Source: an uncultured Oscillospiraceae bacterium (GTDB lineage Bacteria; Bacillota; Clostridia; Oscillospirales; Oscillospiraceae). From it: a stretch of DNA of 37,115 bases. Positions 5,055-35,062 of this stretch are shown here, one piece after another (position 1 is the stretch's first letter; every line of letters begins with the position of its first letter). Below the pieces are notes generated by a model that did not search any database, was not told where the DNA came from, and was given only the letters and a program-made list of their open reading frames with translations. The stretch is from NCBI GenBank assembly GCA_944387635.1, contig CALXFT010000018.1, positions 1-37,115 of the forward strand. The letters run 5' to 3'. The position numbers were made by a program, and so were the translations under genes.

Positions 5055-5087
5055 GAAAAAAGGCAATTCAGAGGAACCTGAACTGCC
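5055..5087 (-). promoter_or_regulatory. Leader terminator (candidate attenuator) of the DUF1576 gene
   Basis: On the minus strand GGCAGTTCAG (5087-5078) pairs over 10 bp, with one G-U, with CTGAATTGCC (5071-5062) around a 6-base loop. TTTTTT follows (5061-5056). It lies between the promoter at 5162-5190 and the start codon at 5014, so transcripts must read through it to express the gene. Confidence 0.7.
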
Positions 5088-5161
5088 CAGACGGTCGGCC
5101 AACCACGCCCCCACTCCACCGCGTACATCCGCGTTTATCCGTCAGTCATGGGGGTAACTGT

Positions 5162-23080: not shown

Positions 23081-25000
<1,920 letters not shown>

Positions 25001-27072: not shown

Positions 27073-29169
27073 TCAGCTGACGCTGAACAGCAGCTCGCCG
27101 TAGGTGGGGAAGGGCCAGTACTTCTTGGGCGTCATGGTCTCCGCCTGGTCGGCGGCGGCGCGAAGCTCTGCCATTTTGCCCAGGACCGTGTCCCGGATGG
27201 CGGCGGACTCCGCCACCGCCCCCTGGCAGTCCTTCACAGCCCGGACCGCCGCCTCCAGGCCGTCGGCCTTCTCCGCGATCCGGTCGCACAGGCCGGACAG
27301 CTTGGTCAGCAGGCCGGTCTCATAGCCCCGGGGCACGTCGGGGGACACGGCCTTCTTGGCGGCGATGGCCTCCGCCAGTTCGGCGGTGCAGCTCTGGACC
27401 GCGGGCAGAATCTCCCTGCGGGCCATGTCCACCATGGTGTTGGCCTCGATGGTCACAGTCTTGCTGTAGTTATCCAGCATGATCTCACAGCGGGACTTCA
27501 GCTCCGCCTCGGTGAACACGCCGTGGGAGGTGAGCATCTTTACGTTCTTCTCGTCCAGCAGATGGGGCATGCAGTCGGGGGTGGTGGGGTAGTTGGACAG
27601 CCCCCGGACCTCCGTGGCCTCCCGTATCCAGGCCTCGTCGTAGCCGTTGCCGTTGAACAGAATCCGCTTGTGGTCCTTGATGGTCTTCTTGATCATCTGG
27701 TGCAGAACGGTCTCGAAGTCCTCGGCGGCCTCCAGCCGGTCGGCGTAGATCTTCAGGGACTCCGCCACGGCGGCGTTGAGCATCATGTTGGCGCAGGCGA
27801 TGGAGTTGGAGGAGCCCAGCATCCGGAACTCAAACTTGTTGCCCGTGAAGGCGAAGGGGGAGGTCCGGTTCCGGTCGGTGTTGTCCCTGGGGAACTTGGG
27901 CAGGACGCTGACGCCCAGCTTCATCAAGGTGGTGCCGGAGCCGTTGTAGGGGGTGTCGTTCTCAATGGCGTCCAGGATGGCGGTCAGCTCGTCGCCCAGG
28001 AAAATGGAGACCACGGCGGGCGGGGCCTCGTTGGCGCCCAGCCGGTGATCGTTGCCGGCGGTGGCCACGGACAGCCGCAGCAGATCCTGGTAGTCGTCCA
28101 CGGCCTTGATTACCGCGCACAGGAACAGCAGGAACTGGGCGTTCTCATAGGGGGTCTCGCCGGGGGACAGGAGGTTCACGCCGGTGTCCGTGGCGATGGA
28201 CCAGTTGTTGTGCTTGCCGGAGCCGTTGACGCCCTCGAAGGGCTTCTCATGGAGCAGGCACACCAGGCCGTGTTTGGCGGCCACCTTCTGCATGACCTCC
28301 ATGGTCAGCTGGTTGTGGTCCGTGGCGATGTTGGTGCTGGTGTAGATGGGCGCCAGCTCGTGCTGGGCCGGAGCCACCTCGTTGTGCTCGGTTTTGGCCA
28401 GGATGCCCAGCTTCCACAGCTCCTCGTTCAGGTCCGCCATGTAGGCCTCCACCCGCGGCTTGATGACGCCGAAGTAGTGGTCCTCCATCTCCTGGCCCTT
28501 GGGGGACTTGGCGCCGAAGAGGGTCCGGCCGGTGTAGACCAGGTCCCGGCGCTTGTTGTACATTTCCCGGTCAATGAGAAAGTACTCCTGCTCAGGACCC
28601 ACGGAGGTCTTGACGCACTTGACCGTGTCGTTGCCGAAGAGCCTTACGATCCGCAGAGCCTGCTTGTTCAGGGCCTCCATGGACCGCAGCAGGGGGGTCT
28701 TCTTATCCAGGGCCTCGCCGCCGTAGGCGCAGAAGGCGGTGGGGATGCAAAGGGTTTTGCCCTTCAGGAAGGCGTAGGAGGTGGGGTCCCAGGCGGTGTA
28801 GCCTCTGGCCTCGAAGGTGGCCCGCAGGCCGCCGGAGGGGAAGCTGGAGGCGTCGGGCTCGCCCTTAATCAGCTCCTTGCCGGAGAATTCCATAATCACG
28901 CCGCCGTCGGGAGAGGGGGAAATGAAGCTGTCGTGCTTCTCGGCGGTGATGCCGGTCAGAGGCTGGAACCAGTGGGTGTAGTGGGTGGCCCCGTTCTTCA
29001 CGGCCCAGTCCTTCATGGCCGCGGCCACGGCGTTGGCCACGCCCACGTCCAGATCGGTACCCTCGTCAATGGTCTTGCGCAGGGAGTTGTAGACCCGCGC
29101 CGGCAGGGTTGCCTTCATAATTCTGTCGTCGAAGACCTTGCTTCCAAACATTTCTGCTGCATTGCTCAT
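27073..29169 (-). CDS. glnN: Glutamine synthetase type III
   Basis: 698 residues, the size of GSIII and much longer than GSI. It makes glutamine from glutamate, ammonia and ATP. Features visible: the GSIII N-terminal region ([29 protein letters not shown]), the [20 protein letters not shown] signature, and the catalytic core with [10 protein letters not shown]. Nucleotide/metal segments are [30 protein letters not shown] and [14 protein letters not shown]. The start ATG 29169 follows AGGAGGA. Its promoter (29373-29401) is separated from the gene by a leader of about 200 bases carrying a terminator and ANTAR-type hairpins. The T-box/asnB unit follows within 30 bases with no terminator seen between. 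Confidence 0.96.
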
Positions 29170-29189
29170 GAAAATCCTCCTCATAAGGA

Positions 29190-29239
29190 CAACGGCGCCC
29201 CGCCTTTCCGGACACGCCGGGAAAGTCAAGACGCCGTTG
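29190..29239 (-). promoter_or_regulatory. Second glnN leader hairpin with an alternative ANTAR-type hairpin
   Basis: On the minus strand CAACGGCG (29239-29232) can pair with CGCCGTTG (29197-29190) across a 34-base loop that itself folds. Alternatively AAGGC-AACGGC-GUCUU (29243-29228) forms a 5-bp hairpin with a hexaloop having A1 and G4, destroying the first stem. No T-run follows. The SD of glnN lies about 12 bases downstream. Confidence 0.5.
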
Positions 29240-29313
29240 CCTTTGTTTTTTCACCAGTTATTCCATTTTCTCCCGTTTCCTTGGGAAACCGGTCTTTTTT
29301 CGGCCCAAGCCAT

Positions 29314-29363
29314 AAAAAAGAGGCAAAGCCGCCATTGGTTACTCCAAAGACGCCTTTGCCTTT
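29314..29363 (-). promoter_or_regulatory. glnN leader attenuator: ANTAR-type hairpins overlapping a terminator
   Basis: Immediately after the predicted transcription start, AAAGGC-AAAGGC-GUCUUU (29363-29346) folds as a 6-bp hairpin with hexaloop AAAGGC. After a 5-base linker, AACC-AAUGGC-GG-c-UU (29340-29326) gives a weaker hairpin with hexaloop AAUGGC. Both loops have A at 1 and G at 4. The competing structure is a terminator: AGGCAAAG pairs with CUUUGCCU, followed by CUUUUUU (T-run 29319-29314). Confidence 0.65.
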
Positions 29364-29372
29364 ACACGGGGC

Positions 29373-29401
29373 ATTTTACACCTCCTGGCCCGGTTTGTCA
29401 A
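29373..29401 (-). promoter_or_regulatory. Promoter of glnN
   Basis: On the minus strand: consensus -35 TTGACA (29396-29401), 17 bases, -10 TAAAAT (29373-29378). It is back to back with the plus-strand promoter at 29452-29480. Confidence 0.85.
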
Positions 29402-29451: not shown

Positions 29452-29480
29452 TTGACAAACGGGAATTTTTCCTGTATCAT
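29452..29480 (+). promoter_or_regulatory. Promoter facing the glutamate synthase cluster
   Basis: Consensus -35 TTGACA (29452-29457), 17 bases, -10 TATCAT (29475-29480). Only 50 bases separate its -35 from the glnN -35, so the two promoters could share operators. Confidence 0.85.
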
Positions 29481-29486
29481 TTACGC

Positions 29487-29550
29487 AAATGAGCAAAGGG
29501 GTTCATTTCGACGGAAACGCGGTTTCCATCGAAATGGACCCTTTTTTCTT
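29487..29550 (+). promoter_or_regulatory. Plus-strand leader: ANTAR-type hairpin overlapping a terminator (GOGAT attenuator or small RNA)
   Basis: From the predicted start, AAATGAGC (29487-29494) pairs over 8 bp (one G-U) with GTTCATTT (29501-29508) around hexaloop AAAGGG, with A1 and G4. The alternative is a 17-bp terminator stem (29495-29511 with 29529-29545) plus an inner GGAAAC/GTTTCC stem, ending in TTTTTTCTTTT. The two are mutually exclusive. It could attenuate the GOGAT operon that starts 490 bases downstream, or, if termination is constitutive, produce a small RNA of about 60 bases. Confidence 0.6.
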
Positions 29551-29626
29551 TTCATGCTGATCCCGCCGCGGCAAAGCGTTTCCGCAAGCGTCAGATAAAC
29601 CCAGGACATTGCGATCACCGCCAGGC

Positions 29627-29975
29627 CCTTGGCTCTCCTGGAAGGAGAGCTGGCACTGCCGACGCAGGAGGCGGTGACTGAGAGGTTTGGGCAGTACGTT
29701 TTTGTAGAATGCTGAGACAGCGGTAAGTGCTCCCCGACCCCTCCCGGCGCGCCCTTCGTTTCGTGCCGGTATTGCCCTAAGCGCCAAATTGGTGCAGTGA
29801 CCGTGTGAAGCGTAAGCATCCTGGCAGCTGCCCAGACGTGAGCTATCCAGGCAGGAACGGATACCGGAAGATTTTGGTTCAGCTGAAGGCGGTTGATTCA
29901 TGGTTTCCATAAGAACGGGGTCCTCCTATCCCCCCTCTCAGTCACGCTTCGCTTCTCCCAAGGAGCGAGCCAAGG
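29627..29975. repeat. Composite palindromic (MITE-like) repeat, copy 3, with a nested repeat
   Basis: The left end is CCTTGGCTCTCC with GGAGAGCTGGC and GGCGGTGACTGAGAGG. The middle GAATGCTGAGACAGCGGTAA and GTGCTCCCC match copy 2. The right end is CCCTCTCAGTCACGC...GAGCCAAGG (29967-29975). It carries the 131-bp repeat (29737-29867) inside. No gene. It lies between the plus-strand promoter/leader and the first GOGAT gene. Confidence 0.8.
29737..29867. repeat. 131-bp dispersed repeat, copy B
   Basis: Direct-orientation partner of 24806-24936, of equal length, with shared blocks such as CTTCGTTTCGTGCCGGTATT-like sequence and GGCAGCTGCCCAGACG. Nested within the composite repeat 29627-29975. Confidence 0.8.
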
Positions 29976-30040
29976 CGGCCCCGCGGGCCACAGGGTGAGT
30001 CAGGTCAATAAGCATATTATTTGAAAGGAATGCAGTGGCT

Positions 30041-31138
30041 ATGAGTAAGAAAGAAGGTCAGATCCGGATTCCCTCGGGCTGCGCCATCGCGGCCGTGATC
30101 TCCAGGGAAGGCCGCCGGATGTCCGGCGAAAAAATCGTTGAGGCCATGAAGCCCATGCACGCCCGGTCCAACGGCTTGGGCGGCGGCTTCGCGGCCTACG
30201 GCATCTATCCGCAGTACCGGGACTTTTACGCCTTCCACCTGTTTTTCGACAACCGGGACGCCCGGAAGGACTGCGAACGCTACCTGAAGGAGAACTTCGA
30301 GATCGTCCAGGCCGAGGTGATCCCCACCCGGAATCTCCCTCAGATCACCAACGTCCCCATGATCTGGCGCTACTTCCTGTCCCCCTTCGCCTCGGTGCTG
30401 GTCCGGGAGAATATCCGGGAAGAGGACCTGGTCTCCCGGACGGTCATGACCATCAACGAGGGCATGGACGGGGCCTACGTCTTCTCCAGCGGCAAGAACA
30501 TGGGCGCCTTCAAGGCCGTGGGCTATCCGGAGGACGTGGGGGCCTTCTATAAGCTGGAGGAATACCAGGGCTACTCCTGGACCGCCCACGGCCGCTATCC
30601 CACCAACACCCCCGGCTGGTGGGGCGGAGCCCACCCCTTCACCCTGCTGGACTACTCCATCGTCCACAACGGCGAGATCTCCTCCTATGACGCCAACCGC
30701 CGCTTCCTGGAGATGTTCGGCTACCGCTGCTCCCTGCAGACGGACACGGAGGTCATCGCCTATATGATGGACTATCTGCTCCGGGTCCAGAAGCTGTCTC
30801 TGGAGGACGCCGCCGCCGTGGCGGCCGCCCCTTTCTGGAGCACCATCGAGAACAACCCGGACCCGAAGGAGCGTCAGCGGCTGACCTACCTGCGGACCGT
30901 GTTCCCCAGCCTGCTGATCACCGGCCCCTTCTCCATTGTCCTGGGCTTCAACGGCGGCCTCATGGCCCTGAACGACCGGCTGAAGCTGCGCTCCATGGTG
31001 ACGGGAGAGAAGGACGACCTGGTATTCATCGCCAGCGAGGAGGCGGCCATCCGGGTCATGGAGCCGGAGGCGGAGAACATCCACGCCCCCGCCGGCGGCC
31101 AGGCGGTGATCGTAAAAGTAAAGGAAGGTGCTTACTGA
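30041..31138 (+). CDS. Glutamate synthase glutaminase subunit (class II amidotransferase domain)
   Basis: 365 residues. It corresponds to the N-terminal glutaminase domain of bacterial GltB as a separate protein. The expected catalytic Cys is Cys14 in IPSGCAIAAVISREGRR, so a 13-residue propeptide would need removal, as in GltB. Further class II features are AHGRYPTNTPGWWGGAHPF, VHNGEISSYDANRRFLE and TDTEVIAYMMD. It should supply ammonia from glutamine to the FMN subunit encoded two bases downstream. AAAGGA (30025-30030) could serve ATG 30041 or the GTG at 30035; I chose ATG. No promoter is visible immediately upstream. The nearest is at 29452-29480, across an attenuator and a repeat. Confidence 0.88.
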   Translation: MSKKEGQIRIPSGCAIAAVISREGRRMSGEKIVEAMKPMHARSNGLGGGFAAYGIYPQYRDFYAFHLFFDNRDARKDCERYLKENFEIVQAEVIPTRNLPQITNVPMIWRYFLSPFASVLVRENIREEDLVSRTVMTINEGMDGAYVFSSGKNMGAFKAVGYPEDVGAFYKLEEYQGYSWTAHGRYPTNTPGWWGGAHPFTLLDYSIVHNGEISSYDANRRFLEMFGYRCSLQTDTEVIAYMMDYLLRVQKLSLEDAAAVAAAPFWSTIENNPDPKERQRLTYLRTVFPSLLITGPFSIVLGFNGGLMALNDRLKLRSMVTGEKDDLVFIASEEAAIRVMEPEAENIHAPAGGQAVIVKVKEGAY

Positions 31139-31140
31139 TT

Positions 31141-32646
<1,506 letters not shown>

Positions 32647-32658
32647 GAGGTGTATGGA

Positions 32659-33087
32659 ATGAAACGGGTTTATGTAAACGAAGAATGGTGCCTGGGCTGC
32701 CGCCTGTGCGAATACAACTGCGCCTTCGCCAACTCCGGCATGACGGACATGGTCAAGGCCCTGAAGGGAAAGCCCATCTTCCCCCGGGTCCGGGTGGACG
32801 GGGACCGGGACATCCATTTCGCCGTGTCCTGCCGCCACTGCCGGGACCCCCTGTGCGTCAAAAGCTGCATCTGCGGAGCCCTGTACCGGAAGGACGGCCG
32901 GGTCCGGGTGGACCGGGACAGGTGCGTGGGCTGTCTGACCTGCGTGCTGGTGTGTCCTTACGGGGCATTGACCCTTTCGGAAAGGGGTACGGTCCAGAAG
33001 TGCGAGCTGTGTCTGGAAAACGCCTGTGGGGAGCCTGCCTGCGTCCTGGGCTGCCCCAACCGGGCCATCGTCTACGAAGAGAGGTGA
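32659..33087 (+). CDS. 4Fe-4S ferredoxin-like electron carrier (HycB/DMSO-reductase subunit type)
   Basis: 142 residues with four cysteine clusters: CLGCRLCEYNC near the start, CRHCRDPLCVKSC, CVGCLTCVLVC, and CELCLENACGEPACVLGC at the end. This is the layout of four-cluster electron-transfer subunits such as HycB. In this cluster it presumably passes electrons between the FAD oxidoreductase and the FMN subunit. ATG 32659 is chosen with GAGAGG 8 bases upstream; a GTG three codons earlier overlaps that site. It sits 12 bases after gltB and 4 bases before the next gene. Confidence 0.88.
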   Translation: MKRVYVNEEWCLGCRLCEYNCAFANSGMTDMVKALKGKPIFPRVRVDGDRDIHFAVSCRHCRDPLCVKSCICGALYRKDGRVRVDRDRCVGCLTCVLVCPYGALTLSERGTVQKCELCLENACGEPACVLGCPNRAIVYEER

Positions 33088-33091
33088 GCGC

Positions 33092-34339
33092 ATGAAACAC
33101 TATGTTATCGCGGGCAACGGCGTGGCCGCCGCCGGATGCGTGGAGGGCATCCGCAGCGTGGACTCGGAAGGCCCCATCACCCTGGTGTCCAGGGAGAACC
33201 ACCCGGTCTACTGCCGCCCTCTGATCTCCTATTACCTGGCTGGCAAGACCAAGCCGGAGCGGATGGGCTACCGGCCGGAGCGCTTCTATGAAGACAACGG
33301 CTGCACGGTCCTCTACGGAACCTCCGTGGACACACTCTCCCCGGAAGCCTCCCGCGTCACTCTCAGCGACGGCAGAGTCCTTCCCTACGACGCCCTCTGT
33401 GTAGCCGCCGGCTCGTCCCCCTTTGTGCCACCCATGGAGGGGCTGGAGAAGGTTGAGAAGAAGTTCAGCTTCATGACCCTGGACGACGCCCTGGCCCTGG
33501 AACAGGCCCTGACTCCGGACAGCCGGGTGCTCATCGTGGGGGCGGGCCTCATCGGCCTGAAATGCGCCGAGGGGATCTGCGGCCGGGCGGCGAAAATCAC
33601 GGTCTGCGACCTGGCGGACCGGGTGCTCTCCAGCATTCTGGACGCGGACACCGCCCCCATGGTCAGCGGCCTTCTGGAAAGCAAGGGCCTGGAGCTGCTT
33701 CTGGGCGACAGTGTGGCCCGGTTCGAGCCGGGCAAAGCCCATATGCGCGGCGGCAAGACCGTGGAATTCGACGTGCTGGTCACTGCCGTAGGCGTCCGGC
33801 CCAACACCGGCCTGGTCAGAGACGCCGGAGGCGCGGTGAACCGGGGCATCGTCATCGACGAAACCATGGCCACCAGCCTGCCCGGGGTCTACGCCGCCGG
33901 GGACTGCGCCGAGGGCTACGACCTGTCCCTGGGGGCCAATCGGGTCCTGGCTCTGCTGCCCAGCGCCTACATCCAGGGGTACACCGCCGGGGTGAACATG
34001 GCCGGAGGCAGGCAGGTCTTTGACCGGGGCATCCCCATGAACGCCATCGGCTTCTTCGGCATGCACATCATGACCGCCGGGACCTATGTATCGGAAGCCG
34101 GCGGCGGCCGGGTCTTCGCCTGGTCCCAGGGCGGCAAGGCCAAGAAGTTCTTCTGCAAGGACGGTCTGCTCAAGGGCTATATTCTCATAGACGCCGTGGA
34201 CCGGGGCGGGATCTACACCGCCCTGATCCGGGAGCAGACGCCTCTGGACACGGTGGATTTGCCCCTGCTGGTTCGAGAACCCACCTTTATGGCCTTCCCG
34301 GCCCAGGCCCGGAAGGAAAAATTCGCAAGCGAGGTGTGA
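33092..34339 (+). CDS. FAD-dependent NAD(P) oxidoreductase of the glutamate synthase cluster
   Basis: 415 residues of the Pyr_redox_2 fold. The N-terminal FAD-binding segment is YVIAGNGVAAAGCVEGI; this GNGVAAAG replaces the usual GxGxxG with the NAS/NirB-like form. The NAD(P) loop is VLIVGAGLIGLKCAEGI at about residues 147-163. A second FAD motif GVYAAGDCAEGYD lies near 265-277. The C-terminal 110 residues include VFAWSQGGKAKKFFC and resemble the dimerisation part of NirB/rubredoxin-reductase-like proteins. By position it takes the role of the GltD small subunit, feeding NAD(P)H electrons to the GOGAT. Start ATG with GAGGTGA upstream. Confidence 0.87.
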   Translation: MKHYVIAGNGVAAAGCVEGIRSVDSEGPITLVSRENHPVYCRPLISYYLAGKTKPERMGYRPERFYEDNGCTVLYGTSVDTLSPEASRVTLSDGRVLPYDALCVAAGSSPFVPPMEGLEKVEKKFSFMTLDDALALEQALTPDSRVLIVGAGLIGLKCAEGICGRAAKITVCDLADRVLSSILDADTAPMVSGLLESKGLELLLGDSVARFEPGKAHMRGGKTVEFDVLVTAVGVRPNTGLVRDAGGAVNRGIVIDETMATSLPGVYAAGDCAEGYDLSLGANRVLALLPSAYIQGYTAGVNMAGGRQVFDRGIPMNAIGFFGMHIMTAGTYVSEAGGGRVFAWSQGGKAKKFFCKDGLLKGYILIDAVDRGGIYTALIREQTPLDTVDLPLLVREPTFMAFPAQARKEKFASEV

Positions 34340-34342
34340 TTT

Positions 34343-35062
34343 ATGGAACTGAACGCGAAGAATCTGGAATTCCGGGAGCTGAACCGGCAGCTGCGCCAAG
34401 GCGGCAGCGTCTTTCATATTACGGGCTGCTGCGGCCAGCGGTTCATCGCCGCCGGCATGGACGGCAAGACCATCACCATTGAGGGCATCCCCGGCAACGC
34501 CCTGGGAGCCTATCTCAACGGCGCTTCCATTGAGGTCCTGGCCAACGCCCAGGACGCCGTAGGCGACACCATGAACGACGGGCAGATCCTCATCCACGGC
34601 AACATCGGCGACGCGGCGGGCTACGCCATGCGGGGCGGGCGGATTTACGTCAAGGGCAGCGCGGGCTACCGGGCCGGAATCCACATGAAGCAGTATCGGG
34701 ACAAGGTGCCTGTCATGATCATCGGCGGCGTGGCAGGCAGCTTCCTGGGCGAATACCAGGCCGGGGGCTTGATCCTGGTTCTGGGCATGAACCGGGGCGG
34801 CGCTCCCCTGGTGGGGGAGTTTCCCTGCACCGGCATGCACGGGGGCAAAATGCTCCTGCGGGGGGACGTCACCGGCATCCGGTTCCCCCGCGGCGTATGC
34901 CCGCGGCCTGCCGGGGAAGCGGACCTGGCGGAAATTCTGCCGGAGCTGGAGCGGTACTGCGGCCTGTTCGGCTATGACCGGAATCAGGTCCTGGACGCCC
35001 CCTTCACCCTGATAACTCCGGACAGCGGCAACCCCTACCGGCAGATGTATGCAGCCAACTGA
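34343..35062 (+). CDS. Glutamate synthase GXGXG-domain subunit (GltB C-terminal domain)
   Basis: 239 residues forming the right-handed beta-helix of the GltB C-terminal domain as a separate protein. The repeated GxGxxxG pattern is clear: IEGIPGNALGAYLNG, ILIHGNIGDAAGYAMRGGRIYVKGSAGYRAG, IIGGVAGSFLGEYQAGG, and LVLGMNRGG. In fused GltB this domain is structural, holding the glutaminase and synthase domains together. Here it completes the five-gene split enzyme. It begins 3 bases after the FAD oxidoreductase stop and is the last gene of the operon. No classic terminator follows, only a GC hairpin (35086-35102) and a repeat. Confidence 0.9.
   Translation: MELNAKNLEFRELNRQLRQGGSVFHITGCCGQRFIAAGMDGKTITIEGIPGNALGAYLNGASIEVLANAQDAVGDTMNDGQILIHGNIGDAAGYAMRGGRIYVKGSAGYRAGIHMKQYRDKVPVMIIGGVAGSFLGEYQAGGLILVLGMNRGGAPLVGEFPCTGMHGGKMLLRGDVTGIRFPRGVCPRPAGEADLAEILPELERYCGLFGYDRNQVLDAPFTLITPDSGNPYRQMYAAN

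Follow-up and report, generated by a model that had tools for sequence, protein, structure and literature searches.

Genes and regulatory elements at the locus

The window, by which we mean the whole stretch of 37,115 nucleotides analyzed here (contig CALXFT010000018.1 of an uncultured Oscillospiraceae bacterium), carries glnN, encoding a type III glutamine synthetase (GSIII), and, running in the opposite direction, an operon for a glutamate synthase (GOGAT) with split domains. Each is preceded by what we call a module, consisting of a promoter, a hairpin with a six-nucleotide loop (hexaloop) and an intrinsic terminator that overlaps this hairpin (Table 1).

Table 1. Features of the divergent glnN and GOGAT transcription units.
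Feature	Position	Strand	Details	Evidence
glnN, type III glutamine synthetase	27073..29169	-	ORF listed 27073-29229; likely ATG 29169	Pfam GSIII_N, Gln-synt_C, Gln-synt_C-ter
Stable hairpin overlapping second glnN hexaloop	29185..29243	-		MFE -36.2 kcal/mol, z -4.9
Second glnN hexaloop hairpin	29228..29243	-	AAGGC-[AACGGC]-GUCUU, 119 nt downstream of the first	Window scan; relatives' glnN leaders
Intrinsic terminator 1 of glnN	29314..29361	-	Hairpin about 29361-29321, U-tract 29319-29314	Folding
P1, ANTAR-type hexaloop hairpin, proposed antiterminator	29345..29364	-	UAAAGGC-[AAAGGC]-GUCUUUG, loop 29357-29352	Covariation and conservation
glnN promoter	29373..29401	-	-35 TTGACA 29401-29396, 17-nt spacer, -10 TAAAAT 29378-29373	Sequence; promoters also precede relatives' modules
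GOGAT operon promoter	29452..29480	+	TTGACA 29452-29457, 17 nt, TATCAT 29475-29480; divergent	Sequence
Single hexaloop hairpin of GOGAT leader	29487..29508	+	AAAUGAGC-[AAAGGG]-GUUCAUUU, loop 29495-29500	Window scan
Intrinsic terminator overlapping GOGAT hexaloop	29495..29552	+	U-rich tract 29542-29552	Folding
Glutamate synthase operon, split domains	30041..35062	+	GATase, synthase, Fe-S, FAD reductase, GXGXG subunits	Pfam

In line with what the initial annotation had read from the DNA, glnN has a consensus promoter on the minus strand, from which transcription probably starts near 29366, and a hairpin with hexaloop AAAGGC a few bases further on, here called P1, which begins after an 8-nt gap from the -10 element and is conserved in relatives. 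The claimed overlap of this hairpin with the 5' arm of a terminator was also borne out: apart from its first three bases, P1 lies within the 5' arm of terminator 1, and the overlap is conserved. This terminator has a minimum free energy (MFE) of -24.6 kcal/mol, while shuffled sequences average -13.8 (z -4.0) and none of 200 was as good. Forcing P1 in the same leader RNA gave -10.2 kcal/mol (P1 alone, -3.5), and P1 and terminator 1 are therefore mutually exclusive, with the terminator prevailing unless P1 is held.

The GOGAT module (29452-29552, plus strand) was absent from the initial annotation. Its terminator has an MFE of -34.2 for 29488-29562 (z -6.4), a value that none of 200 shuffles equaled. 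The stretch from this attenuator to the start of GOGAT is approximately 480 nt long (29560-30020); in ten relatives, the hexaloop is found 88-189 nt from the start of the match. An interspersed repeat occupies part of this leader (core about 29730-29863, with a further copy at 24797-24932), and, counting itself, is matched 57 times in this genome, in several cases close to the end of a contig.

Rfam covariance models gave no match at the gathering score on the glnN leader, either to ANTAR or to any other leader family, and two weak matches below the gathering score were rejected as implausible. On five relatives' loci, four of which have modules, only a tRNA reached the gathering score. A repeat scan of the glnN/GOGAT intergenic region returned nothing, and neither did a plasmid search with the glnN leader as query. 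Elsewhere in the window, the Rfam models identified a ZMP/ZTP riboswitch aptamer at 5078-5159 (minus strand, 45.8 bits).

Conservation and candidate targets across Clostridia

For the comparison with relatives, 80 Clostridia loci (the best 80 of 589) were fetched with an alignment of ANTAR proteins (A3), which means that they were picked by their ANTAR gene; Neglectibacter timonensis, Merdimmobilis hominis, Agathobaculum desmolans and Mediterraneibacter agrestimuris are among them. Our module finder requires a promoter, a hexaloop with A at position 1 and G at position 4 (A1/G4), and an overlapping terminator. It identified 77 modules, all of distinct sequence, in 48 of these best 80 loci, and 0 modules in each of five sets of shuffled loci. 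The gene that follows is GOGAT in 30 cases, glnN in 28, glnA in 5, asnB-like in 2 and purC in 1, with 11 unassigned. Under this strict rule, 32 of the 80 loci are without a module, eight of which have matches to a model trained on such modules, R1.

The inner stem of the hairpin differs by target, being AGGC/GUCU before all 28 glnN genes, and GAGC (28) or GGGC (2) paired with GUUC before the 30 GOGAT genes. In two congeners (L031 and L037), the hexaloop of the glnN leader is GAAGGC and begins with G, while the rest of the module is normal. A1 is therefore not absolute, and these two leaders constitute a natural test of the A1 requirement. Among GOGAT loci from the same taxonomic order, 12 of the 20 examined have an upstream module, one of which (L295) is doubtful as a coding-region match, and two more (L286 and L287) end early but have modules that were seen in other loci; this count leaves out L303-L305.

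Across these best 80 of 589 loci (1.01 Mb in all), model R1 had 126 matches at E <= 0.05; as to training overlap, 2 of the 39 training modules checked (both from L030) occur verbatim in L160, which is outside the 48 module loci. On the genome of this bacterium itself, 21 matches were found at E <= 5, with the window's three hexaloops, which were part of the training alignment, among the best and the third tied with one on contig C3. None of the 17 other loci matched in this genome (L105-L121; one weaker match has no locus) combines a promoter with a terminator. Considering that this search scored 150 of 1002 first-look candidates, and that the draft genome is 90% complete, further targets in this genome are possible.

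Single-hexaloop modules were also observed before purC, asnA, asnB-like genes or glnA in L133, L231, L006, L124, L228, L229, L013, L017, L188, L193, L207 and L210, with the targets in L006, L013, L017, L124 and L133 identified by Pfam. The set of targets suggests a regulon whose members make or use glutamine and whose composition differs between species.

A candidate ANTAR regulator next to glnA

The initial annotation had placed the gene for the ANTAR protein outside the window, and a single such protein was indeed detected elsewhere in the 90% complete draft (G000:C59:8999-9154, E 2.7e-14), encoded directly after glnA and in the same direction. This linkage is common among relatives, as the ANTAR gene lies directly downstream of a neighboring glnA in 29 of 30 loci (the exception being L082). 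In the glnA-ANTAR stretch of this genome, the sole hexaloop with a C-G closing pair and at least 5 bp has no terminator. A EutA homolog is encoded in this genome as well (G000:C12:33237-34562), though the only ANTAR protein detected is the glnA-linked one.

Solved structures matched by sequence to the ANTAR protein are Rv1626, AmiR and EutV. In an alignment of 28 ANTAR proteins, which leaves out L082 and L095, the phospho-acceptor position of the receiver is Asn in 22 proteins as well as in the protein of this genome, and Asp in 2. The Asp of EutV-type, phosphorylation-gated regulators is thus missing here and lost in most of these receivers. The equivalent of EutV Met172 is Met in 28/28, while EutV Tyr164 aligns with His in 28/28, in a residue mapping that allows a two-residue offset between chain and published numbering. 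Because the protein combines a pseudo-receiver with a glnA neighbor, it may be gated by a protein partner, as AmiR is by AmiC.

We then compared the presence of modules with that of ANTAR genes in 60 genomes, of which 53 encode GSIII and 30 encode ANTAR proteins, both counts including the genome studied here. A promoter-anchored A1/G4 hexaloop precedes GSIII in 20 of 30 ANTAR-bearing genomes versus 0 of 23 ANTAR-less ones (Fisher p 2e-7, which is indicative only, as the genomes are related). This is based on 75 of the 78 regions upstream of GSIII, with each of the 53 genomes represented (those at G050:C18, G004:C90 and G027:C101 were left out). Of the ten remaining ANTAR-bearing genomes, two are the GAAGGC cases, four (G001, G017, G018 and G043) have modules at a greater distance, ahead of a different gene or behind a weaker promoter, and in four (G030, G037, G044 and G055) no module was found. 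The type of GSIII also matters: modules are found in 0 of 31 leaders of FGSDVFN-type GSIII, ANTAR-bearing genomes included, and in 20 of 44 leaders of other types overall, with 0 of 7 for ANTAR-less genomes that have such types. Since the ANTAR-less congeners have only FGSDVFN-type GSIII, the contrast between genomes with and without ANTAR genes is partly one between gene types. GOGAT of the type found here occurs in 20 of the 60 genomes, 19 of the 30 with ANTAR proteins and 1 of the 30 without.

Alternative readings of the leaders

Strong terminators close to a promoter, such as those found here, could be plain intrinsic attenuators or constitutive, in which case the hexaloop would simply result from the symmetry of the terminator and would not be acted on by an ANTAR protein. 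We consider this highly improbable. When the loop was left free, requiring only a promoter, a hexaloop on at least 5 bp with a G-C closing pair and an overlapping terminator, 77 modules were found and all 77 have both A1 and G4; the same search with loops of 4, 5, 7 and 8 nt gave only 15, 1, 1 and 3. Hexaloop cores found without the terminator filter overlap a terminator in 115 of 147 cases. The stems covary as well: in 40 hairpins with a seven-pair stem, aligned ungapped (alignment A1), 65 cells were changed on both sides, compared to 26.2 in shuffles, none of which (out of 500) reached this number, and no more than 20 when the stem was slid, and the covariation score was 0.652 versus 0.284. 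Two of the five covariation measures were no better than shuffles (pairs with a change on both sides, 5 vs 4.8; pair types, 18 vs 16.0), and given that the finder that picked the rows required pairing, the covariation is supportive rather than independent. Alignment A1 does not include L003+ 2291 (judged coding despite being flagged positive for promoter and terminator), L005- 1168 and L008+ 2375 (both without a promoter), both L005 glnN modules, the L017 glnN module, the second L069 module, the loci fetched later, and the L031 and L037 glnN leaders, whose loops start with G and fail its filter for A at position 1. Finally, the presence of modules tracks that of the ANTAR gene, with the caveat on gene type given above.

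Another reading is the canonical dual-hexaloop motif, with P1 (AAAGGC) and a weak second hairpin, P2 (AAUGGC), bound as in EutV/NasR; PMC3369931 describes ANTAR RNA as such a dual hairpin with P2 overlapping the terminator, and lists glutamate and glutamine synthases among the genes behind such motifs. An AAUGGC loop does exist in the glnN leader, closed by two C-G pairs after a short linker, and the initial annotation had taken it for a weaker hairpin after a 5-base linker. This could not be upheld, as the loop (29336-29331, minus strand) is part of the 3' arm of terminator 1, has only 2 contiguous pairs and lacks conservation. Downstream of 40 relative modules, P2-like hairpins are about as frequent as expected (at least 2 bp, 8 vs 8.7; at least 3 bp, 4 vs 3.7; at least 4 bp, 0 vs 1.7). 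Across the 77 modules they are slightly over-represented, a small excess in favor of the dual motif (at least 2 bp, 26 vs 17.9 in shuffles; at least 3 bp, 14 vs 8.0, with 3 of 200 shuffle sets attaining the count in each case; at least 4 bp, 4 vs 2.9 expected), but the 14 sites with at least 3 bp are scattered, starting 0-26 nt after P1 with loops unlike one another. The distance between the -10 element and P1 in the 77 modules is only 4-13 nt, and therefore leaves no room for a hairpin upstream. As a positive control, a scan with rules similar, though not identical, to those of the module finder, run without a shuffle baseline on 15 Clostridia loci from 14 genomes, did find hexaloop pairs no more than 140 nt from eutA in 4 of the 15 loci, with gaps of 3, 4, 6 and 10 nt. 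One of these four good pairs has no recognized U-tract, and the scan also returned one extra overlapping pair and two implausible far-upstream matches that appear chance-like. Loci with PF10662 were tried for the same purpose and found unsuitable, with one implausible dual match. Compared to the dual hexaloop ANTAR motif (Ramesh et al. 2012), the glnN leader thus shares the A1/G4 hexaloop (the window's loops being AAAGGC, AACGGC and AAAGGG) and its overlap with a terminator, but not the tandem hairpins. We conclude that the glnN leader consists of a promoter, one A1/G4 hexaloop and a terminator, and is not the dual-hexaloop ANTAR motif, a reading that we regard as improbable.

A second hexaloop in the glnN leader

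Further down the glnN leader lies a second hexaloop hairpin, absent from the initial annotation, with the same inner stem as P1. Among the 77 modules of the best 80 of 589 loci, a second hexaloop 62-140 nt downstream is present in 20 of 28 glnN and 8 of 11 unassigned leaders, as opposed to 0 of 30 GOGAT leaders, and control windows further downstream contain such a hexaloop in 3 of 333 cases. In this genome, the hexaloop is overlapped by a very stable hairpin, which is without a U-tract and ends 2 nt before the Shine-Dalgarno sequence (29182-29176). The corresponding hairpin of one congener (L021) is followed by a run of four T only.

The missing U-tract and the position next to the Shine-Dalgarno sequence raise the possibility that this second element acts on translation or mRNA stability rather than on termination, and PMC3369931 mentions ANTAR motifs near ribosome-binding sites. 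We find this doubtful, though less so than the readings weighed above: 21 of 28 second hexaloops in relatives overlap a terminator of their own, and pairing of the Shine-Dalgarno sequence is predicted to change hardly at all when the second hexaloop is forced. Occlusion of the Shine-Dalgarno sequence by the second hairpin was rejected on the basis of this folding prediction.

Proposed mechanism and relation to known systems

Taken together, we believe that the glnN leader is very probably a transcription attenuator on which a NitR-like ANTAR protein acts by way of single A1/G4 hexaloops. This retains the ANTAR-type control that the initial annotation had inferred for glnN, to which the A1/G4 loops, the overlap of P1 with the terminator and the co-occurrence with ANTAR genes all point, and abandons the dual-hairpin architecture of EutV/NasR. 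Polymerase would start a few bases before the hexaloop hairpin, and P1 would form first. Without the protein, a downstream complement would capture the 3' strand of P1, yielding the far more stable terminator, and transcription would stop. When nitrogen is limiting, our prediction is that the ANTAR protein binds the hexaloop and keeps P1 closed, allowing read-through into glnN, where the second hexaloop would act in series. As the divergent GOGAT operon has a single-hexaloop attenuator of its own, both enzymes of the ammonium-assimilation cycle, GS and GOGAT, would be switched together. The signal would reach the protein through GlnA or a metabolite and not through a kinase.

NitR of Clostridium saccharobutylicum, reportedly described by Stutz and colleagues in 2007 as an ANTAR antiterminator of GS/GOGAT genes, is encoded by a gene that we presume to be linked to glnA in that species. 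According to PMC6316151, this protein induces the GS/GOGAT genes by antitermination upon nitrogen limitation, and PMC4676874 suggests that an ANTAR protein may act in a comparable way in C. thermocellum. With NitR defined largely from PMC6316151, the system described here has the same combination of an ANTAR gene, GS and GOGAT as candidate targets, and a glnA neighborhood, and like NitR ties an ANTAR protein to ammonium assimilation. Unlike for NitR, the targets here include a type III GS. The leaders described here have a single hexaloop for each terminator, and glnN is frequently preceded by two modules, one after the other.

The resemblance to EutV/EutW of the Enterococcus faecalis eut genes lies in the A1/G4 hexaloop hairpin overlapping an intrinsic terminator, and in an ANTAR domain with the Met172 equivalent. 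According to PMC3369931 and PMC8934654, the two hexaloops of eut leaders are separated by 5-12 nt and EutV undergoes phosphorylation, whereas we find one hexaloop per terminator, a receiver Asp that is mostly lost, and His at the position of Tyr164. The pseudo-receiver is shared with AmiR of Pseudomonas aeruginosa, which is controlled by its partner AmiC and not by phosphorylation (PMC8934654), but the targets here are ammonium-assimilation genes and the neighbor is GlnA, in 29 of 30 loci. Because EutV is reported to require both hairpins of the dual motif for antitermination (PMC3369931, PMC8934654), the sufficiency of one hexaloop is a prediction. PMC8934654 also redefines the minimal ANTAR site as one hexaloop, explains the need for two by a model only, and calls for work on how widely single-hexaloop sites are used; the leaders described here answer this call at the level of sequence only.

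A literature search that covered few subscription papers, and not Stutz et al. 2007, found no description of single-hexaloop or glnN ANTAR leaders. We tentatively suggest, as a broader scheme that may well not hold in full, that these leaders belong to a widespread class of ANTAR attenuators in Clostridia, in which one hexaloop per terminator would be sufficient. In glnN, with two in series, a dimer could possibly be handed from the first hexaloop to the second. The pseudo-receiver protein would be gated by the neighboring glutamine synthetase I rather than by a kinase, with GS activity or glutamine binding setting the read-through into GS-III and GOGAT and, depending on the species, also into glnA, asnA/asnB and purC.

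In 48 of the 80 Clostridia loci (the best 80 of 589), these leaders look like natural single-hexaloop attenuators, placed before central genes of ammonium assimilation. They make the question of one versus two hexaloops directly testable, and may provide a regulatory logic for GS-III and GOGAT.
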